From: a virus
Direction: 5' to 3' (one strand)
IMG/VR virus record: IMGVR_UViG_3300035670_011119
Location: 1 to 64,000 of that record
DNA length: 64,000 nt
Part shown: one piece after another, positions 37,391 through 64,000 of the stretch
Layout of the letters: every line of letters starts with the position of its first letter
How positions within the stretch are numbered: the first letter of the stretch is position 1
The notes under the pieces: model-generated
What the model saw: the letters and a program-made list of their open reading frames with translations, nothing else
The model's database searches: none
What the model was told of the DNA's origin: nothing
Program-made: the position numbers and the translations under genes

Positions 37391-39060
37391 GATACTGATC
37401 CTAAATTAGCTTTAAGATGAGCATATTTAATATAATCTTCACTACTTAATTTATCTTTATTCACAATGGCTTGTTGAGCAAAATTATGATTAGATATAAT
37501 GGTTTGGATAGTGTCTATTACATTTTGTCTGGTAAACGGTTGAATTTGCATTCCGTTTTGTGTATATCCATACTCTAGATCTCTAATCATCTGTAAAGGA
37601 ATAATACTATGAATGATGGGATGGTTTGGTAAAAATTGTTTCATAATATTATATACAAAATTATAATTAGTCATTCCTTTTGTAATCTCCATTATGTCGG
37701 GAGGTAATGGCTGAAAAGGATTCATAGGTTGGTCCCATTGACCTTGTAATCCAACAAGTTTAACATTATCAAAATATTTTTCCCACTTTTTTGCTATGTC
37801 ATCCCAATTATAATATAGTTCTGTTAATTTTCTAGTTTCCTGTCTTTTTTGTAGTCTTAATATTGGTGGTAGCTTATAAAGATTTTCTACTATTTCTATA
37901 AAATGATTATTATCAGGATAAACTCTAATAGCTTGTGTTTCTAGTTCCTTAAAGGCTCTTTGTACTCTAACTGGATATCCATTTAGTTTATGAACCACAT
38001 CGTTCATAGCACTATAATCAACAGAGGCCAGAGGTATACCACATGCCCCAGCTTCAACTTGAGGCATACCAAAACCTTCGCATATAGCATACTGTACATA
38101 AAGATCGAATGTATTTATAATATGTGCTAGCCTATGTGAATCTATACCATTATTAACACTAGGTAATTGCATAGACTTTTGTCCACACCTAGGACATCCA
38201 GCAACAACATGACTAAATAGCATAGAGCATATGTGTCCACAATGACGACACGCATATGTAAAAAATACCTTGTTAGATATATTATATTCTTTTAGTAATT
38301 GCGGAATATCCCAGCCAGCATCAGGGTAGCTAGTATGAATATATAAATATGTTTTTTTATACAGCTCGGGATTCTTTTCTTGTAGAAGCTTTAGAGCATC
38401 AAAAAGATCAGGAATTAATTTTCTCTTTTGGTTCCTAACAACGGTGCCAATAATAAAACTGTCTTCTGGAAGACCGAGGGCTATCCTAATATCTCTTTGC
38501 TCATTAATCATTGGATGAAAACATGCGAGATCAACACCAGGAGATGCTGTATCTATATAATTAGCATGATTATTACTTTGCTGTAACAATACATCTCTAC
38601 CAAAATCAGAATATGTAAATAAAGCATCTGCTGATATATAAGTGTCTATCCAGGTTTCTTGTTGTGGCGACGAGTCTATTGTTGGCATTACAACCCAATG
38701 ATAGTATGGTCGTAATGGAGAGTATTGTTGATATGAATTCATCCAATAGTCGCGTATATCAAATACTATATCTGGTTTAAAGTCTAGTAATACTCTATCA
38801 AATCTCCATTTTCCAAATTGATTTTCTGTACTATTATTATATTCTCTGGCTCTTGGATCATTGTCTGCTGGGGCATTTGCATACAACATCCAAGGAATAT
38901 TAATATCTCTTGGATCATTAACCTTAGCATAAGAAGCAAACTCTGCTACTTCATATTTATTAGTAGCATATAGTCTCTTTAATAACTCTCTACTATAGCC
39001 AGAAAATCCAGAGCTAAGATAACTAGCTTCTGAGCACATTAGTAATCTTAATTTTTTCAT
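37387..39060 (-). CDS. Glycosyltransferase, family 4-like, with inserted zinc ribbon
   Basis: I prefer ATG 39060, with AGGAT upstream, over a GTG 30 bases earlier that lies inside the terminator hairpin. The 557-residue protein is a GT-B enzyme: LLMCSEASYLSSGFSGYSRELL at the start, NQKRKLIPDLFDALKLL in the second Rossmann half, and CEGFGMPQVEAGACGIPL with E-x7-E. Between these, residues 271-274 (CRHC) and 289-292 (CPRC) form a zinc-ribbon-like hairpin, unusual in GT4 enzymes and possibly for acceptor or DNA/protein contact. About 100 extra residues follow the GT domain. It is first in the glycosyltransferase operon and downstream of the ssb terminator, so its expression needs read-through or an unseen promoter. 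Confidence 0.8.
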   Translation of the reverse strand: MKKLRLLMCSEASYLSSGFSGYSRELLKRLYATNKYEVAEFASYAKVNDPRDINIPWMLYANAPADNDPRAREYNNSTENQFGKWRFDRVLLDFKPDIVFDIRDYWMNSYQQYSPLRPYYHWVVMPTIDSSPQQETWIDTYISADALFTYSDFGRDVLLQQSNNHANYIDTASPGVDLACFHPMINEQRDIRIALGLPEDSFIIGTVVRNQKRKLIPDLFDALKLLQEKNPELYKKTYLYIHTSYPDAGWDIPQLLKEYNISNKVFFTYACRHCGHICSMLFSHVVAGCPRCGQKSMQLPSVNNGIDSHRLAHIINTFDLYVQYAICEGFGMPQVEAGACGIPLASVDYSAMNDVVHKLNGYPVRVQRAFKELETQAIRVYPDNNHFIEIVENLYKLPPILRLQKRQETRKLTELYYNWDDIAKKWEKYFDNVKLVGLQGQWDQPMNPFQPLPPDIMEITKGMTNYNFVYNIMKQFLPNHPIIHSIIPLQMIRDLEYGYTQNGMQIQPFTRQNVIDTIQTIISNHNFAQQAIVNKDKLSSEDYIKYAHLKANLGSVS

Positions 39061-39080
39061 TTTTAATCCTAGAACTACCC

Positions 39081-39113
39081 AAAAAGACACAAGCCCATAT
39101 GGGCTTGTGTCTT
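39081..39113 (-). terminator. Rho-independent terminator after ssb
   Basis: Bases 39084-39113 are a perfect 30-base palindrome (15-base arms, GC-rich core centred on CCCATATGGG). On the minus strand it is followed by a T run (39085-39081). It begins 14 bases after the ssb stop and ends before the next gene's start at 39060. Confidence 0.85.
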
Positions 39114-39546: not shown

Positions 39547-39574
39547 ATTATACGTCCAGGCTTTGTTTTGTCAA
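39547..39574 (-). promoter_or_regulatory. Sigma70 consensus promoter for ssb
   Basis: On the minus strand TTGACA (39574-39569) and TATAAT (39552-39547) are separated by 16 bases; both hexamers are exact. The stop codon TGA of the upstream polymerase gene lies inside the -35 hexamer. The leader to the ssb start is about 40 bases. Host RNA polymerase should read it early. Confidence 0.85.
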
Positions 39575-41178
39575 GTGGTAGGTAAAAAGATCTTTTCTAC
39601 TATGATTCCATCTTTAGTATTAGACTTTTTCCCTTTGATAATAATAATATTGCCTTCGAATAAAACGTGTCGAAATTGTTTGTATTGTTCAGCAAAACAA
39701 ACCACAGAATCTAAACAGCCCGTATTATCTACTACAGATAGAAATGCCATATCTTGACCTTTGCTTTTGCCACTTTTAGTCTTTACTACATGTATTCTAT
39801 CAATTTCAGCCGCTAATAGTATATTAGTAATACCGATATTATTTTTTATATCTCTGCAAGTAGCATTTGTCATAGTAATATCATACATATCAATTTTTGA
39901 ACATGTAATTGGACAACCTAGCAATTCATTTTCCGTATCAGAAATCCATTCGGCACTATCTTCTAAACTAAATGGAGGATGTAGCATTGTGTACATTATT
40001 TCTTTGATAGTTGAATTTCTATTTTTAGTAATTTTACTATTATTTAGTAGATTTTCTAACGCTTTGTATAAATCTTGATTAATATTTTGTCTAAGTAATT
40101 CTAATTCTCTTTTAGTTAGTTGACTAACTGTAGACAAATCGAATAACATAGTATTTCTTGATCTGCCAAAAATATCTAACGCTCCAGAACCTATTAGAGC
40201 CTTAGCGGCGATACTATTAATTTTTAGTAATACATCTATCAAAAAAGCATACCATCCATTCTTATTATATTCTATTGTTACAGATGATACTATCTTGATT
40301 AGTTTATCAAAAACAGATTTACCAACGCCCTTAATATCTGTTAATCCAAAATATATAGTATTATTATCTAAACAAAAGAATTCATTTAGCAGTCTAATGT
40401 CTGGTGGCTTAACAGAAATATCCATTTCGTTTGCATTTTGAATTAACTCTTTTATTTCTTGCTGAGGATCAATTTTATCTTTAGCAAATCTAAGATATGA
40501 AGCAAAAAAGATTTTAGGAAAATGGGCTTTTGTATATGCTGATAAATATGCATTAATAGCATAAGATACGCTATGACTCTTATTAAACGAATATCTTTGA
40601 CTTTTTTCGATCCAACTAAAAATTTCTTCTGCTTGATCCTCATTAAGAATTTTTGTAGTCTTAGATCCTTCTAAAAATTTTAATTTAACCTTTGCCATTT
40701 CTTCCGGTTTTTTCTTGCCAATTGCTTTTCTTAACAAGTCAGCTTCTTGTAGATTAAATCCTGCTATAACCCTAGTAATGTCCATAGCCTGTTCTTGATA
40801 AACCATCTCCCCATATGTTGGTTTTAATATAGGCTCTAAAGCAGTATGAAAATAGTCAACAGCTTCCTGACCATTTTTTTTGTCTATGTAGTGATTACTA
40901 ACGCTTTTACCATCCCTCATAGCCTCTAGACATCCTGGCCTAACTATACTAATTAGAGCAGATAATTGCTCTATATTTTCTGGTTTAAGTTTTTTAGCCA
41001 TAGTACGTCCGAGTCTGCTTTCCAACTGAAAACAGCCCTTAGTATTTCCGGACGAAATAAGATCCCAGGTTTTGTCACAATCAAGAGATATATGCTCGAT
41101 AGTAGCATCAAAACCAATAGAATTATTATCAGAATCGATAGGAAATTTACATCCACAATCAAATGTAAAATATTTCAT
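39571..41178 (-). CDS. dnaE: DNA polymerase III alpha subunit, C-terminal part (split DnaE)
   Basis: This 535-residue protein carries the second half of a bacterial C-family polymerase. It starts MKYFTFDCGCKFPI, then the fingers (LISSGNTKGCFQLES; LSALISIVRPGCLEAMRDGKSV; PTYGEMVYQEQAMDI; RKAIGKKKPEEMAK; SQRYSFNKSHSVSYA), which in DnaE bind incoming nucleotides and the clamp region. Near 40300 there is a helix-hairpin-helix (IYFGLTDIKGVGKSVFDKLI) and the C-terminus is an OB fold (VVKTKSGKSKGQDMAFLSVVDNTGCLD). All catalytic Asp residues are in the separate upstream part. Together the two halves total about 1,168 residues, near full-length DnaE. Overlaps the exonuclease gene by 4 bases. Confidence 0.92.
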   Translation of the reverse strand: MKYFTFDCGCKFPIDSDNNSIGFDATIEHISLDCDKTWDLISSGNTKGCFQLESRLGRTMAKKLKPENIEQLSALISIVRPGCLEAMRDGKSVSNHYIDKKNGQEAVDYFHTALEPILKPTYGEMVYQEQAMDITRVIAGFNLQEADLLRKAIGKKKPEEMAKVKLKFLEGSKTTKILNEDQAEEIFSWIEKSQRYSFNKSHSVSYAINAYLSAYTKAHFPKIFFASYLRFAKDKIDPQQEIKELIQNANEMDISVKPPDIRLLNEFFCLDNNTIYFGLTDIKGVGKSVFDKLIKIVSSVTIEYNKNGWYAFLIDVLLKINSIAAKALIGSGALDIFGRSRNTMLFDLSTVSQLTKRELELLRQNINQDLYKALENLLNNSKITKNRNSTIKEIMYTMLHPPFSLEDSAEWISDTENELLGCPITCSKIDMYDITMTNATCRDIKNNIGITNILLAAEIDRIHVVKTKSGKSKGQDMAFLSVVDNTGCLDSVVCFAEQYKQFRHVLFEGNIIIIKGKKSNTKDGIIVEKIFLPTT

Positions 41179-41876
41179 ACTGTAGTTTTACCAAAAGAGT
41201 CCTTAAAAAGAATTTTACGAGATAATTTACGATGTAATTTCATAAATCTGATTAAAATTTCTGCACTATCTTTAACATCTTTAATCGCATCATGTGCGCC
41301 GTCTTTAGAAATACCCAAATATTCTCTTAAAGAATCTAATGAATAGCTGGATAGGTCTTGATTATTCTCGAACCATAAAAATACAATATTCATTATATCC
41401 AGAACATCTCGCATATAAAAGATATTGCTACGATTTTCTTTATTTAGATTATTATATTTTTTACTTAATCTATCTACTATGATCAAATCAAATCTATGAA
41501 TATTATAGCCAGCAGCAATAGGAGCAGTAAATTGGCTCTTTTTACTTCCTGATCTACAGTGATACTTCGATAAATATTCGGTAAATAAATTCCAAGATTG
41601 TTTTTGCGATGGATACTCCTTCCATTCTGCCAAAACTTGTTCTTTGGAAGAACCTTTAACTTTAGCATGAAAATCTAATATATCACCTTCGTATATATGG
41701 TTAGGATTGTTTTCTAATACTTCTGGTTTAAAATTTATATTAAATTCAGAATCAGGAATAATAGATAATTGTAATGGATCAACCATAACCGCAGCTATTT
41801 GTACAGGACTGCAAGATAGAGGGTCCGACCCATCTGTTTCAAAATCAAATACACAAATTTTGTTATAATTAATCAT
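41175..41876 (-). CDS. DnaQ-like 3'-5' proofreading exonuclease (DEDDh)
   Basis: The 233-residue protein has the motifs of DEDDh exonucleases: Asp11 and Glu13 in FDFETDG, IHRFDLIIVDRL in the middle (motif II), and His195/Asp200 in AHDAIKDVKDSAE (motif III). It would remove mismatched 3' ends behind the polymerase. It lies between the two halves of the DnaE gene, overlapping the downstream half by 4 bases and the small upstream gene by 8, which strongly suggests it works as proofreading subunit of that polymerase. Substrate specificity is inferred from context. Confidence 0.88.
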   Translation of the reverse strand: MINYNKICVFDFETDGSDPLSCSPVQIAAVMVDPLQLSIIPDSEFNINFKPEVLENNPNHIYEGDILDFHAKVKGSSKEQVLAEWKEYPSQKQSWNLFTEYLSKYHCRSGSKKSQFTAPIAAGYNIHRFDLIIVDRLSKKYNNLNKENRSNIFYMRDVLDIMNIVFLWFENNQDLSSYSLDSLREYLGISKDGAHDAIKDVKDSAEILIRFMKLHRKLSRKILFKDSFGKTTV

Positions 41877-42054
41877 TAACTTCTACTTGTTGTACGGGAG
41901 TGATAAACTGTTTAACTTCTGGATGATTTACTTGCGCAGCATTAAGTGCGGTGCAACAACTAACCCTAATAGTTTCTATCTTAGTATAATCTATGCCCTG
42001 AAACTTAAAAGTACTACCCACAGCTAACTCATGAAACGGTACAAGTTTTGACAT
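41869..42054 (-). CDS. Small protein of unknown function between dnaE halves
   Basis: I chose ATG 42054, which has GGAGA at a good spacing, over an ATG 12 bases upstream deeper inside the polymerase gene. The 61-residue product (MSKLVPFHELAVGSTFKFQG) matches a common pattern of tiny phage and plasmid proteins of the form F-x-L-x-VG-x-x-F with a later NA motif (TALNAAQV). No function is known to me. It overlaps the stop of the polymerase N-terminal gene by 26 bases and the exonuclease start by 8, so it is translationally coupled to the replisome genes. Confidence 0.6.
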   Translation of the reverse strand: MSKLVPFHELAVGSTFKFQGIDYTKIETIRVSCCTALNAAQVNHPEVKQFITPVQQVEVND

Positions 42055-43930
42055 TATATTCTCCATTTTTTAAAAGATCTCTTATTGTCATAATTTTATC
42101 TAACATTGCTATGCCTAAAATATCAAATTTAATCACGCCGATACTTTCTAAATCTTGCATCTCCATACCAGCAATAAGTTGCTCATTTTTTGCATCATAG
42201 ACCATCGGACATATTTCTGCTAAAGGTTGTTCAGCAATAACTACGCCAGCAGCGTGTTTGGACTGATTTGACTTGGTCCCTTCTAATCTAATAGCTTGCT
42301 CAAACCTTTTGGCAAGTGGCCCCTTTAATTCTTGAGTATCGCTATCCAAATAACACCAGTCTCTTAATTTATCTGGATTATTTTCTAGAGCCCATTGTAT
42401 TATGGAAGCTTCTCCATATTCTTCTTTCATTTCTTGAAGTTCATCTGCTATTTTTGCCTCATCAGGAATATTTTTGGTAATTTTATTCATTTCATCAAAT
42501 GATATATTGCCGTATACTCTTAGTACATCTTTTAATGCGCCACGACCCTTCATTGTATTAAACGTTATCATTTGAGATACTTTATTGGTTCCATATTTTT
42601 CTTTAATATAGTTGATAATATTTTCTCTTTTATTAATAGGAACATCTACATCTATATCTGGCATAGATACTCTATCTTTAGTATTTCGACCAGCATTATA
42701 AAATCTATCAAAGATGAGGTTGTATTTTATTGGATCAATTGAAGTAATACCTATTAGATAAGATACTAGACAACCAGCAGCACTTCCTCTACCGGGACCG
42801 GGTAGCCAATTATTAGATCTTACATAGTTCACAATATCTTGCACAATCAAAAAATAACTAGACAGATTAGCTCCTTGTAGAACATCTAACTCATATTTAA
42901 TCCTATCTACATATTCTTGTTGATTTTCTTTCGATATTGTATTTGCTATTTTGTCTCTCCAGCCATCTCTACATAATTGTCGTAAATATTCTGCGTCGTC
43001 GTACCCTGCTGGGCATTTAAAATTTGGTAGCATGGGCTTGTGTGTGATATCATAACTTTCACATAAAGAATCAACATATCTTGTATTTTCTATCTCTTCT
43101 TCTGTATGTAGAGATCTAATTTCTTCTTGCGAAAGAATATGAAAATTATCAGATGTAAAAAAACAAGATAGTCCAACATCTTCATTGTTATTTAGTTTAT
43201 TTTGTATGCTTTGAAAAGTAGTTTTTAAATTATTACATAATAATACCCTTTGATCAACAGCATCTTCTTTAGTACAATAATGAGCATCTGGTGTGCATAT
43301 AACTTTTGTATTGCTTAATTGTCCAAGTGTTCTAATTTTTTCGGTTAAAATATCCTGAATAGGAGTATTAATACGATCCATTAATTGCGCTTCTAAAAAT
43401 AAATTATCTCCAAATACTTCTTTTAGTTCAGATATATGATTTAGACCCATATTTTGCCAATTATCAACTATATCGTCATTCACCATAATTTTATCCGCAA
43501 GTGTTGATCCAAGATGACCGCAAATACCTATCATGTGTGGGCCACAGATCTCTTTGAGTGTATTTATATCGAGCCTGGGCTTGCGATAAAAAAAATCTGG
43601 TCTGTTGGCGCAAGAAACTAAACGAATAAGATTTTTCCATCCTTCCAAATTTTTTGCTAAAACTATGAAATGCGATAGTTTTCCGTTTTCTTTAGACTGA
43701 TCTCTTGGGTCATTATTACAGATATATAATTCGCACCCTAAAATAGGTTTAATATTTTTATTCTTCATGGCTGTAAAAAACTGCACAGCACCGGCTATAT
43801 TTCCATGGTCGGTTAGTGCGCAGGATTCTGCGCCTATATCATGGCACCTTTGTGCCATTTGTTCTGGTTTGCTAAGACCGTCCAATAAAGAAAAATGACT
43901 ATGGGTATGAAGAGGTATATAATTATTCAT
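42029..43930 (-). CDS. dnaE: DNA polymerase III alpha subunit, N-terminal part with intact PHP domain (split DnaE)
   Basis: The 633-residue protein begins with a PHP domain whose metal motifs look intact: LHTHSHFSLLDG, ALTDHGNI, GCELYI, and PDAHYC near residue 215. An intact PHP can hydrolyse phosphates, unlike the degenerate E. coli one. The palm follows: LPGPGRGSAAGCLVSYLIG, then SMPDIDVDVP with two catalytic Asp, and VIKFDILGIAMLDK with the third. Translation stops at about 25 residues beyond that third Asp, so the protein holds all catalytic residues but lacks the fingers. It starts with ATGA overlap to the upstream nuclease gene. No intein-like sequence is seen at the break. Confidence 0.93.
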   Translation of the reverse strand: MNNYIPLHTHSHFSLLDGLSKPEQMAQRCHDIGAESCALTDHGNIAGAVQFFTAMKNKNIKPILGCELYICNNDPRDQSKENGKLSHFIVLAKNLEGWKNLIRLVSCANRPDFFYRKPRLDINTLKEICGPHMIGICGHLGSTLADKIMVNDDIVDNWQNMGLNHISELKEVFGDNLFLEAQLMDRINTPIQDILTEKIRTLGQLSNTKVICTPDAHYCTKEDAVDQRVLLCNNLKTTFQSIQNKLNNNEDVGLSCFFTSDNFHILSQEEIRSLHTEEEIENTRYVDSLCESYDITHKPMLPNFKCPAGYDDAEYLRQLCRDGWRDKIANTISKENQQEYVDRIKYELDVLQGANLSSYFLIVQDIVNYVRSNNWLPGPGRGSAAGCLVSYLIGITSIDPIKYNLIFDRFYNAGRNTKDRVSMPDIDVDVPINKRENIINYIKEKYGTNKVSQMITFNTMKGRGALKDVLRVYGNISFDEMNKITKNIPDEAKIADELQEMKEEYGEASIIQWALENNPDKLRDWCYLDSDTQELKGPLAKRFEQAIRLEGTKSNQSKHAAGVVIAEQPLAEICPMVYDAKNEQLIAGMEMQDLESIGVIKFDILGIAMLDKIMTIRDLLKNGEYNVKTCTVS

Positions 43931-48649: not shown

Positions 48650-49026
48650 TGTTCATAACTTTCATTAAAGGGAAGTTCTATAAAACCTATACCATTCAGA
48701 TTGCACCATTCTTTTTTTAGCTTATCTCGTTTTTGATGACGTAAAAAGCCTAGTGCATTACCATGATAGTGAGCAATAAATTTATAATGTTGTTCGCCAT
48801 GGGTTTCTATGCATAGTCTTTTTAATGGAATATAAAAATCTAAATATAGAGTATCATTCCTAGTAATTTTAATCGGCACTTCTTCTAAAATTTGTAACGT
48901 AGGAAATATTTCTGTAATCATTTCCCTAGCCTTCATGTGAAGACCAGATTTTTTTATATTTGGATTAGCTTGATATCCAACTAATTGCCAATTATAGATA
49001 TTTCCATCTAGATCATGCACTTCCAT
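48613..49026 (-). CDS. Vsr-like / PD-(D/E)XK endonuclease
   Basis: I chose ATG 49026 over the non-ATG extension upstream, which starts inside RecA. The product (137 residues) has ITRNDTLYLDFYIPLKRLCIETHGEQHY, giving a D...E-x-H pattern of Vsr/PD-(D/E)XK nucleases, then HQKRDKLKKEWCNLNGIGFIELPFNE. The N-terminal segment (NIYNWQLVGYQANPN) could bind DNA. It overlaps recA by 14 bases and the next gene by 37. It may be a repair nuclease or a free-standing homing endonuclease; the HxE of the core is unlike homing nucleases of the GIY-YIG or HNH type. Confidence 0.6.
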   Translation of the reverse strand: MEVHDLDGNIYNWQLVGYQANPNIKKSGLHMKAREMITEIFPTLQILEEVPIKITRNDTLYLDFYIPLKRLCIETHGEQHYKFIAHYHGNALGFLRHQKRDKLKKEWCNLNGIGFIELPFNESYEQWLNRLRQQKTN

Positions 49027-50044
49027 TATTAATACCAACAGTATTTTTTACAGCCTGATATAGTTCTTCGTATCGTGTAGGATTGTCTATTAAGAACTGT
49101 CTTACTTTTTCAGAACCTTGAAATTTAAGTTTTTCATCGGTAATAAAATCTAACGTATACCAAGCTCCTCCTTTATTAATTAGTCCCATATCTGTAGCTA
49201 TCATAACTAATTCTGTAAATTTATCGATACCTTGTCCATATCTTAAATATGATGTGATTGTTCCGCCGGGCGGTCCAAGAGCAGAACATAAAACTTGCCA
49301 TTCTACTTCTTGACCTATTTGAGCACCATCTGTGCCTAAAACCCATGGTTTATGAAATTTTGCCTTTAATTTTACATCTGTTTGATATGCAATAGCTTGT
49401 CCGCTTTTTTCTTTCCATTCAACATTGCCATATCCTGGATTACCCATAAGATGTGTAATACCAATTACTATATTCTTATTTACTGGTATAACATTTGCAA
49501 CCTTACGACAAAATTTAGCTAATAGTTTTGCTCCATCTGCTCTTTGCATTTTATCCATATCACTTGTAATCTCGGCCTCGGTACATAATGCAGAATAGGA
49601 GTCTATGATTATGATTGATCCTGGTTCTTCATTGATAAGTTTTTCTGCAATTTGTAAATATTCTTCAGCATGTAAAATCTTTCCTTGCTGAGAACCTATT
49701 ACATCAAATCTATCTAGATCTAATTCTTTTATACCTTCTAAGTCTCTCTTTTTTAGTCTACCTTCTATGTTAAGGTAGTACACATGTCTTGGGCTTTTCA
49801 GATCTCCACGATATGCTTCCTTTTGGGCTGTTGCAGCAAAATCAAGAGATGTGGTGGTTTTGCCACATTTTGGCTGACCAGTAAAAATAACGAAACTACC
49901 TTCTGGTATACCTCCTTGAAGCACAAGATCCAATGCTGGACTAACCGGTATAATTATAGATTTTCTGTCTACTATGGAATTACCAGACAGAATGATATCC
50001 GTACCAAAGTTTTTCTTTACGTCTTCTTTAACTGTCATTGTCAA
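49013..50044 (-). CDS. recA: RecA/UvsX-type recombinase
   Basis: This 343-residue protein has the RecA core: VSPALDLVLQGGIPEGSFVIFTG, Walker A GQPKCGKTT at residues 56-64, YYLNIEG (Glu of Walker-B-like catalysis region) and IIIIDSYSAL with catalytic Asp. It lacks the N-terminal helix extension of E. coli RecA. It performs strand exchange in recombination-dependent replication and repair, working with the SSB and nuclease genes in the same operon. Start ATG 50044 overlaps the upstream gene by 17 bases. Confidence 0.92.
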   Translation of the reverse strand: MTMTVKEDVKKNFGTDIILSGNSIVDRKSIIIPVSPALDLVLQGGIPEGSFVIFTGQPKCGKTTTSLDFAATAQKEAYRGDLKSPRHVYYLNIEGRLKKRDLEGIKELDLDRFDVIGSQQGKILHAEEYLQIAEKLINEEPGSIIIIDSYSALCTEAEITSDMDKMQRADGAKLLAKFCRKVANVIPVNKNIVIGITHLMGNPGYGNVEWKEKSGQAIAYQTDVKLKAKFHKPWVLGTDGAQIGQEVEWQVLCSALGPPGGTITSYLRYGQGIDKFTELVMIATDMGLINKGGAWYTLDFITDEKLKFQGSEKVRQFLIDNPTRYEELYQAVKNTVGINNGSA

Positions 50045-55825: not shown

Positions 55826-57139
55826 CTACTCAAAAACAAATGCTTTGGAATTCAAAAGAAGATCATTGTTTTTTATTTTGGTGTATTGCTGTGCTAAGTT
55901 AGTTTTATTTTTGATTTCTATTTGAAACACATCGACATTATACAGCCCTGGGTTGTGTTTGTCAATCCAGTCATATATATTTTGTATAAATGCTGCTCTT
56001 TCTTTACCAAATCCATAAGCTAAATCCGAATATTTGGTTGTAATAATTATATCATGCTGTGAAATTTTATCTGATAGGTATTCAATATGATTGTCTAGTT
56101 CTGTCATATTAAATAGATGACGCACAGACTTCCAATGTTCGTCGCTATAATTCCATCGCAAATTAGCATAATATTCTGTATCAAATACTACTCTGCGCTT
56201 TAGCTCGTTTGCAATAAGAGAGTTATTTAAATACAAAACCTTACAATAGGTTTCCAAAAATTGCAACAATCCAAAGTCTACAAATTGATCAATATCAATA
56301 TATATGCCAAGATCAAATATTGGTTTGGCCTTATGGCCAAAAAATCCCCATTTTCTAATAAATTTTTTAAGTTCTTGATGATCAGCGATTTGTTGTAGAA
56401 GATTTTTTTGCTCTACTGTTCTATCGGATTCTGGTTTGAACCAGTTTTTGCCACGAGAAGAAACACAAGTAAAATGATAAACACTAGCATCCCATGTTTG
56501 TACCATATTTAAGCCAGCAAGACCCATTCTAATTATCATATCAGAATCTTCTCTAGAACATCTGAAATGAGTATCAAATCCACCAAGTTTCTCAAACCAT
56601 GTTTCTTTGTATACTACGAATGGTGCAAAATGTCCTTCCATGTTTGGTTTATTTTCTTTTTGTAATTCTAAAGTAAATTCTTGAAACTTTTCGTATTGAA
56701 AACTTTCTGGTGTCACACCAAAATCTTTTATGATTTTTTCTGGCGAAGCAGGGTGAAGTGGCGGTTCTATCCGAGAACAAGTTAAAACCATATCTTTATT
56801 AATCATATTTTTCAATATATGTTTATCAAAATTTTTACCTACTACCATATCAGATTGTAAATAACATACAATATGTTTTGTGGCAGCATCGAACATTAAG
56901 GAAACATTGCGTTGACTACCAATAGGCATAGACGTATTGTTTCTATATATTTTTATATTTGATAACGATTGTTTAATTTCTAATAAGTCTTCATATGTAT
57001 TTTGATTATCGCTATCAATAAATACTAATATTTCATGATTTTCAATTTTTGTGTTTTCTATTAGAGAACGAATCAATAATTTAGTATATTCTTTTTCATT
57101 TTTAGCAGATGCTATACAGAAACTGATACTATTGTCCAT
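55826..57139 (-). CDS. Glycosyltransferase family 2-like
   Basis: The 437-residue protein starts at ATG 57139 with AGGA upstream. It has the GT-A features: SFCIASAKNEKEYTKLLIRSLI at the start, IDSDNQNTYEDLLEI, the metal-binding SDMVVGKNF, and GGFDTHFRCSREDSDMIIRM with an ED acceptor-activating pair. The C-terminal 180 residues are an extension of unknown fold. It is the last gene of the sugar-synthesis operon and overlaps the epimerase gene by 11 bases, so it is a candidate for transferring the operon's product to an acceptor. Confidence 0.78.
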   Translation of the reverse strand: MDNSISFCIASAKNEKEYTKLLIRSLIENTKIENHEILVFIDSDNQNTYEDLLEIKQSLSNIKIYRNNTSMPIGSQRNVSLMFDAATKHIVCYLQSDMVVGKNFDKHILKNMINKDMVLTCSRIEPPLHPASPEKIIKDFGVTPESFQYEKFQEFTLELQKENKPNMEGHFAPFVVYKETWFEKLGGFDTHFRCSREDSDMIIRMGLAGLNMVQTWDASVYHFTCVSSRGKNWFKPESDRTVEQKNLLQQIADHQELKKFIRKWGFFGHKAKPIFDLGIYIDIDQFVDFGLLQFLETYCKVLYLNNSLIANELKRRVVFDTEYYANLRWNYSDEHWKSVRHLFNMTELDNHIEYLSDKISQHDIIITTKYSDLAYGFGKERAAFIQNIYDWIDKHNPGLYNVDVFQIEIKNKTNLAQQYTKIKNNDLLLNSKAFVFE

Positions 57140-58001
57140 TTTTAGATTCCTTTTGATTTTTATGCTCTTTATAAATTAATTTAATAGCGTTTTCTAAACC
57201 TATATATTTTATGTGTGTTTCAACGTATTGGCCTGTATAGTCCTTGTTAGATAAGCCGATATTATTGGTGTTGTTCTCATAAATAATTTCTACTTTATGA
57301 TCATCTAAATTATTAATTATATTAGCTATTTCAGACAAATATACTTTATCTTTATAACAACAATCAAATCTTTTTGGTATATTCTGTGTTTGTATAAAAA
57401 AGTGTATAACTTGAGCCAAGTCTCCTACATAGAAAAAGTCCATTTTACGATCAGAATGAATGACCATATTTTCATAATTTAAATATTTAGTAATATTATT
57501 TCTTATCATTCTATCTGGTTGTTCATCATAACCAAAACAATTATAAATTCTAAAATTACACAATTTTGGTTCATCAGCAGTTATTTTATCTATTACGTTT
57601 TTACACAAACCATAAGGATCAATTGGATACCTATTAATAGATTTAGAGTTAATATTATATCTTCTGTCTAGTTCTGCTCCGGAACCGAAAGATATGATGC
57701 ACTGAAAATAATCTTGATAACTTAAAAGATTATATAGCATTAATAAATTATTATATACTATAATTGGATCATCTGGTTTATTTCTTCGTCCACCCTCAAT
57801 AGCGGTATGTATTAAGAGATCGAATGATTTGTTGTGTTTTTGAAAAAATGTTTTAACTTGTTCACTATCTAATAAATTAGCATCTTGTCTAGTTAATGTT
57901 GTTATATGATATAAGTATTGATTATCTTTTTTCATATTACCCAAATAAGTTTTTAGATTACGACCCAAAAATCCATTTGATCCAGTAATTAATATATTCA
58001 T
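57129..58001 (-). CDS. NAD-dependent sugar epimerase/dehydratase (SDR extended)
   Basis: Start ATG 58001 has GAGG 8 bases upstream and is preferred over the frame's farther non-ATG extension. The 290-residue protein has GSNGFLGRN (NAD-binding Gly motif) at the N-terminus, the catalytic YGLCK (YxxxK) near residue 155 and a preceding Ser in SFGSGAEL. MDFFYVGDLAQVIHFF is typical of the NDP-sugar epimerase/reductase C-terminal domain. It works on a nucleotide sugar; exact substrate unknown. It overlaps the remnant frame before it by ATGA. Confidence 0.82.
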   Translation of the reverse strand: MNILITGSNGFLGRNLKTYLGNMKKDNQYLYHITTLTRQDANLLDSEQVKTFFQKHNKSFDLLIHTAIEGGRRNKPDDPIIVYNNLLMLYNLLSYQDYFQCIISFGSGAELDRRYNINSKSINRYPIDPYGLCKNVIDKITADEPKLCNFRIYNCFGYDEQPDRMIRNNITKYLNYENMVIHSDRKMDFFYVGDLAQVIHFFIQTQNIPKRFDCCYKDKVYLSEIANIINNLDDHKVEIIYENNTNNIGLSNKDYTGQYVETHIKYIGLENAIKLIYKEHKNQKESKNGQ

Positions 58002-58153
58002 ATTATAGCCTCTTCTATCATAGAACATATATTATTCATAGAAAAATCATTAGACCATAGCATTTTTGCAGTTTTTTCATGATATCCCCAAACTTTACTT
58101 TCTATATTTTGTGGGTCACTCAAAGCTTCGAAAGCAATGTTTGGATTTGTGGT
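57998..58153 (-). pseudogene. Gene remnant between sugar kinase and epimerase
   Basis: Between the kinase stop and the epimerase ATG, a 51-codon frame runs from a stop at 58156-58154 to TGA at 58000-57998, with no plausible start. It reads TTNPNIAFEALSDPQN and later EKTAKMLWSNDFSMNN, resembling the C-terminal helices of a glycosyltransferase. An ATG at 58163 opens only 15 codons in a different frame. This looks like the decayed end of a deleted or frameshifted gene. Confidence 0.4.
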
Positions 58154-58164
58154 TTAATTCCATA

Positions 58165-59172
58165 TTATTTTGCAGCATGATTATTTTCTCTATTTGCATG
58201 TTTTTTTATTCTTTTTGCTATACCAATAAATGTTTCGTCTATAGATTCAGACATGTGTGATATATTAGCATTTTTATATTTGTGTTGCATGTATTTAATA
58301 ATTATAGGAATCTTTCGTGGAATTCCACCAGTGAGCACAATCGTTTTATCATATGGAGTAAACAAAAATTCATCATATTGATCAATATAACATCTAATAA
58401 TAGAAGCTGTAAAATTTTTGACATTAAAAGAATTTTCATATATATTATTAATATTTCCACCACTAATTGTAAACTTATGTGCCTGATGAAATATATTTAA
58501 GTTTATATTAATATTGCTATCTAGTATATCTTGTAGAGATATTTGTTTTGTTAGTTTAAATAAGTCGGAACCAAGTTCAAGAAAAAAGTTTTGAAAAACA
58601 TTTAGTGCTCTGCCACTAGGTATATAGCTGTATCTATTATATTCTCTTCCATTTTGTATTTGTATAACTTGTGATCCTGTACCAAGATTAACAATTGATC
58701 CATAGTCTGGTATCATAGACCTAGCCGCTTCTATAACACAATTTGTGTCACCAAAAGAACTATAAACTGGTTTATTATTTATAAATCCAAGAACTGAACA
58801 ATCTTCTATAAATTTATATTTTGATGATGTTCTATAATGATCAGAATGCATATGAAAAGTTGGTAAACCATAAAACAAACCGCTAATCATACAACAATCT
58901 TTAATGTTTTTATCATATATTTTATTGCTTTGCCAAGAATGATAATAGTCATTTATATAATATCCGCCCAGAATTGAACAAATATAAATATTATCAATTT
59001 TATTATCATATATAGATACAATACTAGTAAGAATATTGATTAGATCTTTTTTATGTATAGATTTAGAACACAAAAATGGAGATTCTCTTATGGAATAATC
59101 AAAAAAATTTATACCATCATACAAAACACTTTTTATATTTGATGCACCGAAATCAATTAGTAAAGATTTCAT
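58165..59172 (-). CDS. FGGY/ASKHA-type sugar kinase-like protein
   Basis: This 335-residue protein has the ASKHA phosphate-1 motif SLLIDFGASNIKSVLYD at the start and, in the centre, YSSFGDTNCVIEAARS and GSIVNLGTGSQV, which resemble sedoheptulokinase and related FGGY kinases. The second nucleotide motif, TIVLTGGIPR, lies near residue 280. It would phosphorylate a sugar or cyclitol before or within the pathway. It overlaps the cyclase by 20 bases. The family's typical length is about 450-500, so it is short, and substrate identity is uncertain. Confidence 0.6.
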   Translation of the reverse strand: MKSLLIDFGASNIKSVLYDGINFFDYSIRESPFLCSKSIHKKDLINILTSIVSIYDNKIDNIYICSILGGYYINDYYHSWQSNKIYDKNIKDCCMISGLFYGLPTFHMHSDHYRTSSKYKFIEDCSVLGFINNKPVYSSFGDTNCVIEAARSMIPDYGSIVNLGTGSQVIQIQNGREYNRYSYIPSGRALNVFQNFFLELGSDLFKLTKQISLQDILDSNININLNIFHQAHKFTISGGNINNIYENSFNVKNFTASIIRCYIDQYDEFLFTPYDKTIVLTGGIPRKIPIIIKYMQHKYKNANISHMSESIDETFIGIAKRIKKHANRENNHAAK

Positions 59173-60175
59173 TTAATTTATATGCTAGTTGTTGATCGAG
59201 TGTTGAATCAATAAAATTTGTTATGCCTATTTCTGAAGGCACAACCAATGTAATTTTATTTAGTTTAGTTTTTTTATCTTGCTTAAGCAGCTCAATTATA
59301 GTAGAGGTTTTTAGATTTTTAATTTTATCTAAAGAGGTATATTCTGATATGATTTTACTAATATTATTATTGTTAGTGAACAGCCTATTTATTATCTCAA
59401 TACCTAATAAAACAGCCTCTCCATGAGGTATTGTATAATTTGTTGCGGCTTCTATTGCGTGACCAAATGAATGTCCATAGTTTAGTGCTTTGCGTATATT
59501 TATTTCGAATTCATCATATTCTATAATAGATTTCTTGATAGCTAACCCATGAAAAATTCTTTCTTGCATAGAATATTGATTTATTTTTTCTATGTATGAT
59601 ATACCACCTAAAATAAAAAATTTAATAATTTCTCCCATTCCATTAATAATATCTTGAGAATTAAGAGTTTTTAAAAACTTAGGATCAATTATAACTAAAG
59701 ATGGTGCAGAAAAAAGCGCTAGTTGATTTTTGATACTATGAAAATTTAATGCTGTTTTACCTCCAATACAACTATCGCATTGAGACAATAGCGTTGTTGG
59801 AATATAAACCCAATTGATTCCTCTTTTGTAGATCGAGCCAACAAAAGCGCCTATGTCTTGTGTAATTCCTCCACCAATAACAAATAATCTATGTCCTTTA
59901 TTAAACCCTTTATCACAAAGCCATTGACAAACCTTCAAAACCGTCTCTATGTTTTTATTTGATTCTATAGGATTTATAATAAATGTATTCTTATGATTTA
60001 TATCATACAGTTTTTGTACATTATTATCTATTAATAGAAAATCATTTGTATCAAAACTATTATTAAAAGAATCAAATATAACACTATAATTTTTTGGATG
60101 TGAAATAATTTCTAAATTATTTGTAAAATTATGTAAGGGCTGCAAAGATACATTATCAATAATAAATTTATTCAT
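59153..60175 (-). CDS. Dehydroquinate-synthase-like sugar-phosphate cyclase
   Basis: The 340-residue protein keeps the whole family core: VIGGGITQDIGAFVGS (NAD loop), WVYIPTTLLSQCDSCIGGKTA (substrate and metal side), MGEIIKFF (metal Glu), NYGHSFGHAIEA (metal His) and HGEAVLLG (metal His). Dehydroquinate synthase, 2-epi-5-epi-valiolone synthase, 2-deoxy-scyllo-inosose synthase and amino-DHQ synthases all share this pattern, converting a sugar phosphate into a carbocycle. No other shikimate gene is near; the neighbouring sugar kinase suggests a heptose or hexose phosphate substrate. Specificity cannot be read here. Confidence 0.78.
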   Translation of the reverse strand: MNKFIIDNVSLQPLHNFTNNLEIISHPKNYSVIFDSFNNSFDTNDFLLIDNNVQKLYDINHKNTFIINPIESNKNIETVLKVCQWLCDKGFNKGHRLFVIGGGITQDIGAFVGSIYKRGINWVYIPTTLLSQCDSCIGGKTALNFHSIKNQLALFSAPSLVIIDPKFLKTLNSQDIINGMGEIIKFFILGGISYIEKINQYSMQERIFHGLAIKKSIIEYDEFEINIRKALNYGHSFGHAIEAATNYTIPHGEAVLLGIEIINRLFTNNNNISKIISEYTSLDKIKNLKTSTIIELLKQDKKTKLNKITLVVPSEIGITNFIDSTLDQQLAYKLNEIFTN

Positions 60176-60176
60176 T

Positions 60177-60806
60177 TTAAATTCCTAGTAGACTATATCC
60201 ACCATCAATAATAATATTTTGTCCAGTTATACTTTTGTTTTGTTTGAGAAAAAAAACACAAATATCAGCTATATCTTGAGGTATTGTTATGCCAAGAGGT
60301 ATTTTTTCTTGTAGTTCATTAATTCTATTTTGTGTATTATTTTTTATTGTCATTGGCGTTAGAACAAAACCAGGAGAAATCATATTAACTTTAATTTTAT
60401 TTGATGCCATTTCTAATGCTAGTGTTTTAATAGCGCCGAGCATGGCATGTTTAGACATGGTATATGCTAGTCTACCTATTTTTGTAGATGTCGAATATAG
60501 TGATCCTATAGCTAAGATATTTGCTCCTTGATTGAAGCTTAGAGATTTGCATAAAGATACAAAACCAAAACAATTTATTTGCATTGTTTCTTTGATATTT
60601 TCTATACTTAAATTATTATATTCACAAGGATTATTAATTCCAGCACAATATATTAGTCCATTAATATTATTAGCATTAAAACAAATATCAGATTTAAGAT
60701 CGTGGATTTGTCTATTTAAAGATATTATGTCGAACCCAGCCGCAATACAAGAGGATTGTATACTTGATCCTATACCACCAGATGAGCCAGTAATAATTAT
60801 AGACAT
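60177..60806 (-). CDS. Short-chain dehydrogenase/reductase
   Basis: The 209-residue classical SDR has TGSSGGIG (TGxxxGxG) near residue 7, the NAG-like YCAGINNP, catalytic Ser in LAIGSLYS, YTMSK (YxxxK) near residue 125, and the SPGFVLTPM signature with C-terminal IDGGYS. It is FabG-like and reduces or oxidises a carbonyl with NAD(P)H. It starts by TAATG overlap with the upstream ThDP gene and its 3' end carries the AGGA ribosome site for the cyclase. Substrate inferred to be a pathway intermediate. Confidence 0.85.
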   Translation of the reverse strand: MSIIITGSSGGIGSSIQSSCIAAGFDIISLNRQIHDLKSDICFNANNINGLIYCAGINNPCEYNNLSIENIKETMQINCFGFVSLCKSLSFNQGANILAIGSLYSTSTKIGRLAYTMSKHAMLGAIKTLALEMASNKIKVNMISPGFVLTPMTIKNNTQNRINELQEKIPLGITIPQDIADICVFFLKQNKSITGQNIIIDGGYSLLGI

Positions 60807-62554
60807 TAAAAACTTTCAGAAATGAACATATCTGTCAAAGATCCAGGTATAATTTTGCCATCCTTGTCGATACCACGATGCGTTACTTTTGGTTCGTGTC
60901 TTTCTTTTGGGTGTGTGAACACCTCGATCACACACGGTTTATTATATTGTTTGGCTGCGGTTAGGCAATCAACAATTTCACTATTATCTGATATTGAGTA
61001 ATATTTGATATCAAAAGCATTAGCAATAGATTTTATATTAGGTATTGACACGCCATTTTCTGGACCACTCGCAAATTCTTGTCCTTTAAAAAAAGATTCC
61101 TGTGTTAGTTTTATAGATAGATATCCCTGATTATTTATTATTATTATCGCTATTGGTAGTTCATGATGCTTTATGGTTTGTAATTCTTGAAGATTCATCA
61201 TAATACTACCATCACCTTCTATGCATATGGTTTTGCTTTTATTTTTTGCTATACAAGCACCTATGCTCGATGGTAATCCGTATCCCATGCTTGCGCATCC
61301 GACATTTGTAAAAAGTTTTTGATTAGTATGTAGTCTATAGGACTGTAGTGTAATAACATGTGCGCTACCATTACTAGTAACTATTGTTTCAGTATCCCAT
61401 ATCTCTTTTGCTAGATGTATTAAATAGTAAAAACTAGCATAGTTTTGTATATTTTTATGTTTAATGTGATAATATTCTTGTTGTTTTCTAATATTATTTA
61501 TCTGAGATAGCCATTCGATATTTGTTTTTATCTTTCTAGAATCATTAGAAATCGAGTCGAAAAACACATTAAGATCAGACACTATTGCTAAATCTATATC
61601 AAATGGATGTTTTTTGATTTCGTTATGATCTATATCCACCATAATTTTTTTAGAATTTGGCGAGAATTCTTTTGTATTATATCCGGTCATTTTTACAGGA
61701 ATTCTTGTTCCTAAACAAATTAACAGATCGGACTGTTGTACAATTTGATTGGATGTTAATTGTCCTAGAATACCTATTCTACCCATATAATGTTTATAAT
61801 TATTATCAATACAATCTATACCAGAGTGTGGGCCTGTTACTATTGGTAAATTATATTTATTTAGAAATTCTAATAGTTTTGTAGAAGTATTTGATAAACA
61901 AATACCATTACCTGTTATCACTAATGGTTTTTCGGCATTGCTTAATAATGTTAGGAATTGTTCTATATCAGAAATAGTGATGGATTTTTGTATGTATTCC
62001 TCTGTATATCTTTTACATTTGTCACAATCTATTATGGCTCCTTGTATATCTAATGGAATATCTATCCATACTGGTCCGGGTCTACCAGACATGCTAATTG
62101 TATATGCTTTTTCTAATTCATAATATATGTCGTATGGATCTAAAATTATTGTTGAATATTTTGTAATTGGTTTTACTAGATTTACAATATCAAATTCTTG
62201 ATCTCCTATTTGTCTACAACCAGTATTTTTAGATAGTTGCGATCTAGGAACTTGTCCAGAAATAAATAATCCAGGAATACTATCTGTCCACATACCCATA
62301 AGACCAGTTATGGTATTTGTACCTCCAGGACCTGTGGTGACTATGTTGGCACAAAGCTTGTTTGACTGTCTGTAATATCCTTCAGCAGCCATTGCTATTG
62401 ACTGTTCGTGATGAAAACAATATGTATTTAATTTATCTGAATGCGTTCTTAGGCTATCTACAAGATGTATACAGCCACCACCAGATATAGTAAATGCATC
62501 AGTAATATTTTTTTCTATTAAAAATTCTATAACGATATCAGATATTTTTTTCAT
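60806..62554 (-). CDS. Thiamine-diphosphate-dependent enzyme, acetolactate-synthase-like
   Basis: This 582-residue protein has the three-domain ThDP layout. HHEQSIAMAAEGYYR supplies the catalytic Glu that activates thiamine, TTGPGGTNTITGLMG follows, and GDGSIMMN...IIINNQGY is the ThDP and magnesium motif. The C-terminal GSLTDMF segment resembles ThDP enzymes found in surface-glycan clusters rather than housekeeping acetolactate synthases. Such enzymes cleave or join two-carbon or aldehyde units. In the operon it may extend or shorten a keto sugar next to the NeuB-like synthase. It overlaps both neighbours (ATGA upstream, TAATG downstream). Confidence 0.78.
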   Translation of the reverse strand: MKKISDIVIEFLIEKNITDAFTISGGGCIHLVDSLRTHSDKLNTYCFHHEQSIAMAAEGYYRQSNKLCANIVTTGPGGTNTITGLMGMWTDSIPGLFISGQVPRSQLSKNTGCRQIGDQEFDIVNLVKPITKYSTIILDPYDIYYELEKAYTISMSGRPGPVWIDIPLDIQGAIIDCDKCKRYTEEYIQKSITISDIEQFLTLLSNAEKPLVITGNGICLSNTSTKLLEFLNKYNLPIVTGPHSGIDCIDNNYKHYMGRIGILGQLTSNQIVQQSDLLICLGTRIPVKMTGYNTKEFSPNSKKIMVDIDHNEIKKHPFDIDLAIVSDLNVFFDSISNDSRKIKTNIEWLSQINNIRKQQEYYHIKHKNIQNYASFYYLIHLAKEIWDTETIVTSNGSAHVITLQSYRLHTNQKLFTNVGCASMGYGLPSSIGACIAKNKSKTICIEGDGSIMMNLQELQTIKHHELPIAIIIINNQGYLSIKLTQESFFKGQEFASGPENGVSIPNIKSIANAFDIKYYSISDNSEIVDCLTAAKQYNKPCVIEVFTHPKERHEPKVTHRGIDKDGKIIPGSLTDMFISESF

Positions 62555-63624
62555 TGAATATCATTAACAGTGAGAGGTTGATCTTTTTTAAGGTCTCGTT
62601 TAGCGATACTATTGGTTTCTATAAAAGTTCTAGAAGATAGTTGATTAATTTCTGGCTGAAAAGGGATCGCACAATATAGATCAGATAGAGTGATACTATC
62701 TCCGGCACGAATATTTTTATTCAAATAAAGACCTCTATGTAATGATGTTAGATAATTCGTTTCTTTGTCGTCTATATTGCGTCTTTGTGATGAACTGACA
62801 CCACACATTTCTATTGCTTTACGATAAGCACAAAACCATTTATCTATTTGCTCGGGCAATGAGCAGTATTTACTAACTTCTTTTTGTTCATCATTTGGTC
62901 CATATGGTATATCTATATGTCTTTCCCATGTCCTAGCTCCTTTAGCATATGAAATCAGCATAGAAGAATACCAATCGCCATATTCATGAGTAGATAAGCC
63001 TATAATATGGTTAGGATATCTTTGTTTTAAATAATCGATTTGATGTAATTCTAGCTCATGATCTTCGCTTGGATATTTAGAAATACAGTGATTAATTGCT
63101 AAAGAAATATTTCTTTTTTCAAAGAATGTCACAACATCATCTATTTGTTTTTCGTTTGCTCCACCAGTTGATATTATAACGGGTTTTTTGGTTGATGCAA
63201 TTTTATTAAGTAAAACCCAGTCATTTATATCTGAACTAGCAACCTTTATTAAAGGTAAATCCATATCAACGCACCAATCGACAGAAGTCTCATCAAATGG
63301 CGTAGCCATTGGTAAACAATTTCTGTGTTTAATAAATTTTACTAATTCGTAAAATTTTTCATATGATAATTTAGTTCTGTTTGTTTTTTGAATGTATCTA
63401 GTTCTTTTGGAAAGATCAATAAGATTATTATCAATACCTTCCATAATAAAATTTTTATGTATAAACGTATCAATATCTCTAAACTGTAGTTTTATAGCTG
63501 CTTTAATATTATGTTTTCTAACAATGGCAGAGAATTGCTTAACTATATTTTTACCTCTTTCTAAGGAGCCCCAATGATTGTTTGCTAGCTCAAGCACGAA
63601 AAGATCATTAAATATATTATTCAT
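62551..63624 (-). CDS. NeuB-family sialic/nonulosonic acid synthase-like
   Basis: The 357-residue protein has the NeuB order: LELANNHWGS at the N-terminus, MATPFDETSVDW, IKVASSDINDW (metal/PEP pocket), ISTGGAN, NHCISKYPSED, IGLSTHEYGD, and ERHI for catalysis. The last 70 residues (AGDSITLSDLYC; KDQPLTVNDI) form an antifreeze/SAF-like cap domain. It condenses phosphoenolpyruvate with an amino-sugar aldehyde, giving a nonulosonic acid (sialic, legionaminic or pseudaminic type). HWGS instead of the usual HNGS and ERHI instead of EKHF leave the substrate open. ATGA junctions link it to the HAD gene and the ThDP gene. Confidence 0.82.
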   Translation of the reverse strand: MNNIFNDLFVLELANNHWGSLERGKNIVKQFSAIVRKHNIKAAIKLQFRDIDTFIHKNFIMEGIDNNLIDLSKRTRYIQKTNRTKLSYEKFYELVKFIKHRNCLPMATPFDETSVDWCVDMDLPLIKVASSDINDWVLLNKIASTKKPVIISTGGANEKQIDDVVTFFEKRNISLAINHCISKYPSEDHELELHQIDYLKQRYPNHIIGLSTHEYGDWYSSMLISYAKGARTWERHIDIPYGPNDEQKEVSKYCSLPEQIDKWFCAYRKAIEMCGVSSSQRRNIDDKETNYLTSLHRGLYLNKNIRAGDSITLSDLYCAIPFQPEINQLSSRTFIETNSIAKRDLKKDQPLTVNDIQ

Positions 63625-63920
63625 ATATGTTTCCAGTCTTTGGTATTAATATTTTTATCATCTATAAATAGATCATAATACGGCTTACCAAATTTAATTT
63701 GATGGTATTTAACACCCCATTTAGCAAATTGTTCTTTAGTAACTTCTGACCAATCTATACCACTCTTTGTTCCTCTTGCTGTCCAATATACAATAGTATG
63801 TCCGTCTTCATACAGAGCGTTGGCTTTTTTGATATTATCAACTATTGGTATACTATCATTATAGTCTGGCTTGTTAGGACTATAACAAATAGTATCATCT
63901 ATATCTATATATATTACCAT
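63621..63920 (-). CDS. Small HAD-family phosphatase (capsule-type)
   Basis: The 99-residue protein has the HAD nucleophile motif DIDDTI (DxDxT) at residues 5-10, a threonine/arginine motif VYWTARGTKSG and the acidic motif IDDKN near the C-terminus. Length matches the short capsule-biosynthesis phosphatases found next to sugar genes. It would remove a phosphate from an acylated sugar phosphate before or after the NeuB step. It overlaps the upstream epimerase by 7 bases and the NeuB gene by 4. Confidence 0.8.
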   Translation of the reverse strand: MVIYIDIDDTICYSPNKPDYNDSIPIVDNIKKANALYEDGHTIVYWTARGTKSGIDWSEVTKEQFAKWGVKYHQIKFGKPYYDLFIDDKNINTKDWKHI

Positions 63921-64000
63921 ATAAATTTATCTTTATAATAATTAACTATGTTAGACAATTCTAGATCAAAGTTTTTAGTTGGGGACCAACCCAAAGCTCT
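63914..64000 (-). CDS. NAD-dependent sugar epimerase/dehydratase, C-terminal end (cut by window)
   Basis: Only the last 28 residues and the stop are in view. They read ALGWSPTKNFDLELSN then IVNYYKDKF, matching the C-terminal pattern of NDP-sugar epimerases/dehydratases (GW-x-P then a helix). Its stop overlaps the HAD phosphatase start by 7 bases, so it is part of the same operon, upstream of the window end. Confidence 0.6.
   Translation of the reverse strand, partial: RALGWSPTKNFDLELSNIVNYYKDKFIW

Follow-up and report, generated by a model that had tools for sequence, protein, structure and literature searches.

The virus record IMGVR_UViG_3300035670_011119 carries a real, intact and widely conserved phage operon. 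It represents a version of the YerE-type pathways to branched sugars, to which a carbocycle cassette has been added. Its product is most likely a C-branched 3,6-dideoxysugar of the yersiniose/erwiniose type, the branch of which is probably turned into a carbocycle by a kinase, an AroB-like cyclase and an SDR. We give this reading as a whole, in which a phage encodes the route to a C-branched dideoxysugar whose branch is carbocyclic, about an even chance of being correct.

The window, that is, the whole stretch of DNA analysed, is the first 64,000 nucleotides of the 75,597-bp record, and the DNA beyond the window edge was also read. According to the ORF calls, the window encodes nine predicted enzymes, all intact and closely packed on the minus strand, which are given here together with RfbH from beyond the edge:

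55826..57139, minus strand: GT2-type glycosyltransferase (PF00535, E 5e-9)
57129..58028, minus strand: EPI2, NAD-dependent epimerase/reductase (PF01370, 73 bits), adjoining the module in related phages
58165..59172, minus strand: KIN, shortened FGGY-type sugar kinase (structural model and alignment)
59153..60175, minus strand: AROB, dehydroquinate-synthase-like cyclase near TIGR04425 (profile scores, residues and tree)
60177..60806, minus strand: SDR (PF13561, 114 bits), directly before AROB
60806..62554, minus strand: THDP, predicted YerE-like ThDP carboligase (JanthE 8rph, 349 bits; co-inheritance)
62551..63624, minus strand: NEUB, NeuB-type synthase of the 3g8r subgroup (PF03102, 138 bits; alignment)
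63621..63920, minus strand: small HAD-type phosphatase (weak NCBIfam matches to the BT0820 and EcbF-BcbF families)
63914..64000, minus strand: 3' end of the RmlB-like 4,6-dehydratase, whole gene 63914-64873 (TIGR01181, 287 bits; PDB 2hun, 230 bits)
66673-68046 of the record: RfbH (441 bits against a cut-off of 423)

A sequence-only reading of this stretch had described a left-pointing, overlap-linked series of nine genes. The series is present and intact, and its order recurs in viral contigs; most neighbouring ORFs do overlap, by 1-20 bases, but a 1-base gap separates the AroB-like gene from the SDR and a 136-base gap the kinase from the epimerase. The gene families named in that reading were confirmed by Pfam and NCBIfam, except that the window kinase lacks a Pfam match at E values of up to 0.1, and the supposed epimerase at the window edge, an epimerase-type gene indeed, is specifically a dTDP-glucose 4,6-dehydratase homologue. 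Beyond the edge the operon extends to ~69,617, so that its start lies ~5.6 kb past the window, and continues through the RmlB-like 4,6-dehydratase with two GT11-like genes, RfbH, an Fcl-like epimerase gene and a GT2 gene, the two GT11-like genes and the GT2 gene being three further glycosyltransferases. Next to its far end lie a dCMP deaminase and then a ribonucleotide reductase; the phage's reductase resembles reductases from phages of several groups. Chance grouping of the operon genes is excluded because the same order is found in many independent viral contigs.

Away from the operon, the window holds two more GT-B glycosyltransferase ORFs (Glycos_transf_1) at 36266-39090 and a split DNA polymerase, whose ORFs at 42029-43930 and 39571-41178 match successive parts of a single PHROG family and flank an RNase_T exonuclease ORF (41175-41876). 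In a related phage (L003, 14648-16684), the Walker A motif of the RecA/UvsX-like gene is interrupted by an intein-like insertion of ~330 residues, whose final HN precedes TTTS; the copy in the window (49013-50044) is without this insertion.

THDP is closer to the YerE-like enzyme JanthE (8rph, 348.7 bits) than to the best acetolactate synthase (251.6 bits), and its identification as an acetolactate synthase was therefore rejected. YerE adds decarboxylated pyruvate to CDP-3,6-dideoxy-4-keto-D-glucose, while ErwE prefers longer, 4-hydroxylated 2-oxo acids (PMC12247030). The gene context of such an enzyme is also present, with RmlB-like and RfbH genes in the same operon and recurrently in related loci, and these two genes beyond the window edge point to a YerE-like branching reaction. 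RfbH scores above its curated equivalog cut-off, is closest to the Yersinia 3-dehydrase (3bcx, 310 bits) and keeps both the PAHH motif, with His in place of the PLP-binding Lys, and CxC...C; in fact, His replaces the PLP lysine in the DegT proteins of nearly all module loci that we read. The ThDP family is broader than the cyclase or NeuB sets, with 106 matches in uncultivated viral contigs (the best 80 of 106 were kept), and it matches a PHROG with no assigned function. In one phage (L017/L175/L266) the ThDP frame is broken into a 183-residue piece and the remainder, owing to a sequencing error or as a pseudogene, and another contig (L287) has two ThDP genes, one on either side of NeuB.

We compared 30 dereplicated phages with a window-type NeuB. 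The SDR-AROB-KIN set behaves in an all-or-none manner, following ThDP in 18 and being wholly absent from 12, and in one phage (L272) the SDR sits elsewhere in the module. Its place in the cassette-less phages is usually taken by methyltransferase-like genes, recognised by eye from sequence motifs; the best that Pfam offered was a weak FtsJ match, for a related gene at another place in the module. When cassette presence was mapped onto gene trees, a single change sufficed on the ThDP tree (support 100), as against seven on the NEUB, ten on the RMLB and nine on the EPI2 tree, the RMLB and EPI2 counts being no better than those of shuffled labels. Pairs of phages that differ in the cassette illustrate this: identity between L249 and L298 is 88% for NeuB, 86% for the dehydratase and 83% for the epimerase but only 53% for ThDP, and between L257 and L262 it is 82, 92 and 86% for the same three proteins but 52% for ThDP. 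Across all cross-label pairs ThDP identity is 48-55%, and in all same-label pairs it is at least 56%. The ThDP tree and the pairwise identities thus indicate that THDP, SDR, AROB and KIN move as one block within a constant frame running from RmlB and NeuB to the epimerase, EPI2 being part of that frame. The flanking glycosyltransferases and DegT genes vary among loci, as they would in a loose collection of surface-sugar genes acquired separately and yielding no joint product; but the gene order is fixed and the cassette all-or-none across these 30 diverged phages, and the same gene associations are found in many bacterial phyla, so that we hold such a collection to be very improbable.

Scans of uncultivated viral contigs retrieved 71 with the cyclase and 60 with the window-type NeuB. 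No genuine relatives of the module are found among 50,697 named phage records: the ThDP and AROB matches there are weak (<~36% identity) and were rejected as relatives, several of them coming from records that bear bacterial names and label the gene simply as acetolactate synthase or 3-dehydroquinate synthase; for NeuB there are three distant matches only. The impression of the sequence-only reading that this combination is unfamiliar in phages therefore holds for the named records but not for uncultivated viral contigs, where it is common. In bacteria, a scan with the phage cyclases yielded 80 loci, spread over many phyla and 33-44% identical, and for the bacterial module we found no product described. 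The bacterial SDR-cyclase loci are of three kinds that hardly mix. Class A (44 loci) carries Gfo/Idh, SIS isomerase, 2-hydroxyacid dehydrogenase and CMP-sugar synthetase genes and has neither ThDP, NeuB nor kinase; class B (8 loci) combines ThDP with NeuB, and in 7 of the 8 with the kinase; class C (9 loci) combines ThDP with an HpcH/HpaI-type aldolase and never has NeuB or the kinase. The same three classes recur in viral contigs (24 A, 19 B and 20 C), with 6 further contigs having NeuB without the kinase; one of the six, L189, in truth belongs to class A. The viral class A clusters (L195-L238), with SIS isomerase and CMP-sugar synthetase, apparently represent another undescribed sugar pathway.

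The ThDP enzymes also differ between these sets at one pocket residue, V121 in JanthE (PMC12188165) and D118 in the cassette ThDP. It is Asp in 21/21 cassette-bearing and Gln in 13/13 cassette-less ThDPs; most bacterial class B and C enzymes have Asp there, and those of phage class C mostly Ile.

Like the sialic and pseudaminic acid synthases, the phage NEUB has the NeuB family domain, but it groups with 3g8r (194 bits, against at most 76 bits for the best of those synthases), and it falls below the equivalog cut-offs of both PseI (132 versus 340 bits) and NeuB (121 versus 400 bits). NeuB, with or without the kinase, and the HpcH-type aldolase are mutually exclusive, occurring together in 1 of ~68 bacterial and viral ThDP-cyclase loci (Fisher p 4e-11, loci being counted as unrelated and kinship ignored). 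The sole viral contig with NeuB, kinase and aldolase, L185, also has its SDR displaced from the cyclase, as has L272. A phosphorylated 2-keto-3-deoxy acid would be reached either by NeuB followed by the kinase, or by the aldolase with a possibly already phosphorylated aldehyde, and our pathway model builds on this. With the NeuB profile rather than the cyclase as the query, 990 genomes from three phyla gave 15 further genomes, 10 with ThDP and 7 with a DegT/RfbH-like gene nearby; one of them, a spirochaete, holds the full class B set. The typical bacterial gene order in this survey is RfbF-(dehydratase)-RfbH-NeuB-ThDP, and these clusters independently tie the NeuB product to a ThDP reaction on a 3,6-dideoxy-4-keto sugar. 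In both proteins examined (L324, 8705-10282; L326, 7758-9341), which adjoin RfbH and a ThDP gene, NeuB is fused to a cupin resembling D-lyxose isomerase, which suggests a plain aldose as the acceptor of NeuB.

The kinase was assigned from its AlphaFold model (pLDDT 89.9), which has the FGGY fold with a Z of 24 to glycerol kinase and xylulokinase (for glycerol kinase, Z 24.0 over 318 aligned residues, rmsd 3.4); its sequence profile found no solved relative. The DFGAS, GDT, GTGSQ and GGIP motifs are kept in the alignment, and longer bacterial relatives match PF00370. The window kinase is ~80-100 residues shorter than those relatives, the window type measuring ~305-335 residues and full-length forms of ~390-425 residues being found in phages of other cyclase lineages (L285, L283, L289 and L296). 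The kinase occurs almost only alongside the cyclase.

The best NCBIfam match of the cyclase is TIGR04425, described as an AroB-related putative sugar phosphate phospholyase (cyclizing), with which it shares an SDR gene directly before it, almost always so in phages and bacteria, and a surface-sugar neighbourhood. It scores 291 bits against a curated cut-off of 400, however; other phage cyclases that we tested reach 289-377 bits, whereas class A members reach 431 and 455, and it is these true members that lie with SIS, Gfo/Idh and CMP-sugar synthetase genes and not with NeuB, ThDP and kinase. A literature search on the TIGR04425 description gave no match. The cyclase shares its fold family with 3-dehydroquinate synthase (DHQS, AroB), and all 17 of the zinc-, NAD- and substrate-binding positions examined are as in three DHQS sequences. 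It nevertheless falls below the AroB cut-off (242 versus 305 bits) and is tied to sugar genes, and we rejected an ordinary shikimate gene. In the cyclase tree it belongs to an eight-member phage-only clade, separate from AroB and within class B, and the phage cyclases overall have three separate origins. In bacterial class A cyclases, the DHQS K197 position is often His. The sequence-only reading had named two findings that would speak against it, a recent transfer from a host capsule locus and broken active sites, and neither was found: we rejected recent uptake, the bacterial cyclases being at most ~44% identical and the window AROB lying in its phage-only clade, and no active site looks broken. 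Its general proposal of an unusual phage sugar pathway with a probable carbocycle-forming step is upheld by the kept catalytic residues and the many phage relatives.

All the DHQS positions examined are conserved across the phage cyclases and those of bacterial classes B and C. They include K214 and R228, the pair that in DHQS binds the substrate carboxylate (residue names follow Aspergillus DHQS numbering). This is the weak point of a branched-ring pathway, as a branched sugar would be without a carboxylate, and it favours cyclisation of the free acid. NeuB, kinase and cyclase might then mimic the first shikimate steps, the phosphorylated 2-keto-3-deoxy acid being cyclised directly to a quinate-like carbocyclic acid that the SDR modifies, while ThDP, in a reaction of its own, uses pyruvate or another keto acid to branch the 4-keto sugar and both products enter one glycan. 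The occurrence of SDR-AROB without ThDP in class A, there with CMP-sugar synthetase, also accords with two such branches. However, phages and bacteria alike have NEUB and ThDP as a pair where the cyclase is missing, and the cyclase is inherited with ThDP and not with NEUB, which is unexpected for separate branches; we regard this reading as unlikely, if a serious one.

A different use of the kinase and cyclase, close to the scheme of the sequence-only reading, would be on a ketose such as sedoheptulose, giving a cyclitol ketone that ThDP acylates, with NeuB and the 4-keto enzymes serving another sugar. Three points would suit it: ketoses and polyols are substrates of FGGY kinases, the Gfo/Idh protein of class A is similar to inositol dehydrogenase, and ThDP is co-inherited with the cyclase. 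The cyclase, however, retains the DHQS residues, and loci that combine ThDP, RfbH and the 4,6-dehydratase but have no cyclase are common, leaving this scheme rather improbable. The order of events in the sequence-only reading, with kinase and cyclase acting first and NeuB adding pyruvate last, is not supported: NeuB and ThDP occur without the cyclase in 12/30 phages and in the bacterial RfbF-RfbH-NeuB-ThDP clusters, which places NeuB in the core and makes the cyclase cassette an optional add-on.

We thus favour the C-branched dideoxysugar with a carbocyclic branch on the basis of the JanthE-like ThDP, RfbH above its cut-off, the NeuB/aldolase exclusivity, the NeuB-ThDP-RfbH linkage in bacteria, the kinase accompanying the cyclase, the all-or-none cassette, ThDP co-inheritance and the kept cyclase residues. 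Such a pathway explains why kinase and cyclase come together, and why ThDP tracks the cassette and NeuB does not. Against it stand the five phage contigs that have NEUB and AROB without the kinase and an operon without a nucleotidyltransferase of the phage's own, and ThDP co-inheritance could reflect hitch-hiking on one recombination block.

From the enzyme families, their linkage and the exchange of the cassette we infer the product, the order of steps, the attachment site and each chemical step, above all the placing of the kinase-cyclase-SDR step. The RmlB-like 4,6-dehydratase and the RfbH-type 3-dehydratase would convert a host nucleotide-glucose into a 4-keto-3,6-dideoxy sugar nucleotide, while the NeuB-like synthase would join PEP and an aldose to a 2-keto-3-deoxy sugar acid. 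The YerE-like ThDP enzyme would decarboxylate this acid and attach what is left of it, an acyl chain, at the C4 ketone; the resulting branched sugar would bear a tertiary alcohol, and the reaction would be analogous to those of YerE and ErwE (PMC12247030). The FGGY kinase would then phosphorylate the chain end, the AroB-like cyclase would carry out oxidation, phosphate elimination and ring closure by internal aldol addition onto the keto group of the chain, and the SDR would adjust the oxidation state. The second epimerase/reductase and the glycosyltransferases would finish the sugar and attach it, the host surface or the virion being the most likely site. In related phages, the THDP-SDR-AROB-KIN cassette is swapped for another ThDP enzyme, usually with methyltransferase-like genes, so that the open-chain branch may be left as it is or methylated in cassette-less phages and phosphorylated and cyclised in cassette-bearing ones. 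A six-membered ring would need a seven-carbon acid, predicting a tetrose acceptor, a demand that also speaks against the pathway. Aurantose of Spirochaeta aurantia is a 14-carbon branched sugar and would fit a C6 sugar plus a decarboxylated C9 acid. The glycosyltransferases of the operon suggest use of the sugar on host-surface polysaccharide or virion glycans, two of the targets proposed by the sequence-only reading; the third, phage DNA, is unsupported, as no base-hydroxymethylating gene was recognised among the phage proteins searched.

With the YerE, ErwE and JanthE pathways to yersiniose A and erwiniose of bacterial LPS (PMC12247030), the operon shares a YerE-like ThDP enzyme, an RfbH-type 3-dehydratase, a 4,6-dehydratase and an SDR-type reductase/epimerase. 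It differs in that the donor acid apparently comes from a dedicated NeuB (or aldolase), in the added kinase-cyclase-SDR cassette, in its dTDP-type dehydratase and in being phage-borne. The bradyrhizose operon of photosynthetic Bradyrhizobium comprises 11 genes, including a dTDP-glucose 4,6-dehydratase (PMC4743980). Phage serotype-conversion and LPS modules likewise probably alter host-surface or virion glycans, but they consist of a few transferases or acetylases, whereas here a de novo pathway to an unusual sugar would carry a swappable ring-forming cassette.

Yersiniose-type branched sugars are already known in bacterial LPS; a NeuB-made donor and a branch ring-closed by an AroB-like enzyme would, if true, be new sugar chemistry. 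The question is directly testable, since near-identical phages with and without the cassette pinpoint the genes that differ. Functional context is gained for TIGR04425, which has no known product, for the 3g8r-type NeuB, which comes without a stated role, and for a ThDP family widespread in uncultivated phages. Altogether, the linked swapping of the ring-making genes and the branch-attaching enzyme suggests that phages alter a surface with a type of sugar not yet described. Tentatively, phages and some bacteria may make an undescribed class of monosaccharides, deoxysugars with a C-branch closed into a ring by a DHQS-like enzyme, and the exchange of the cassette together with ThDP may switch between sugar types much like serotypes.
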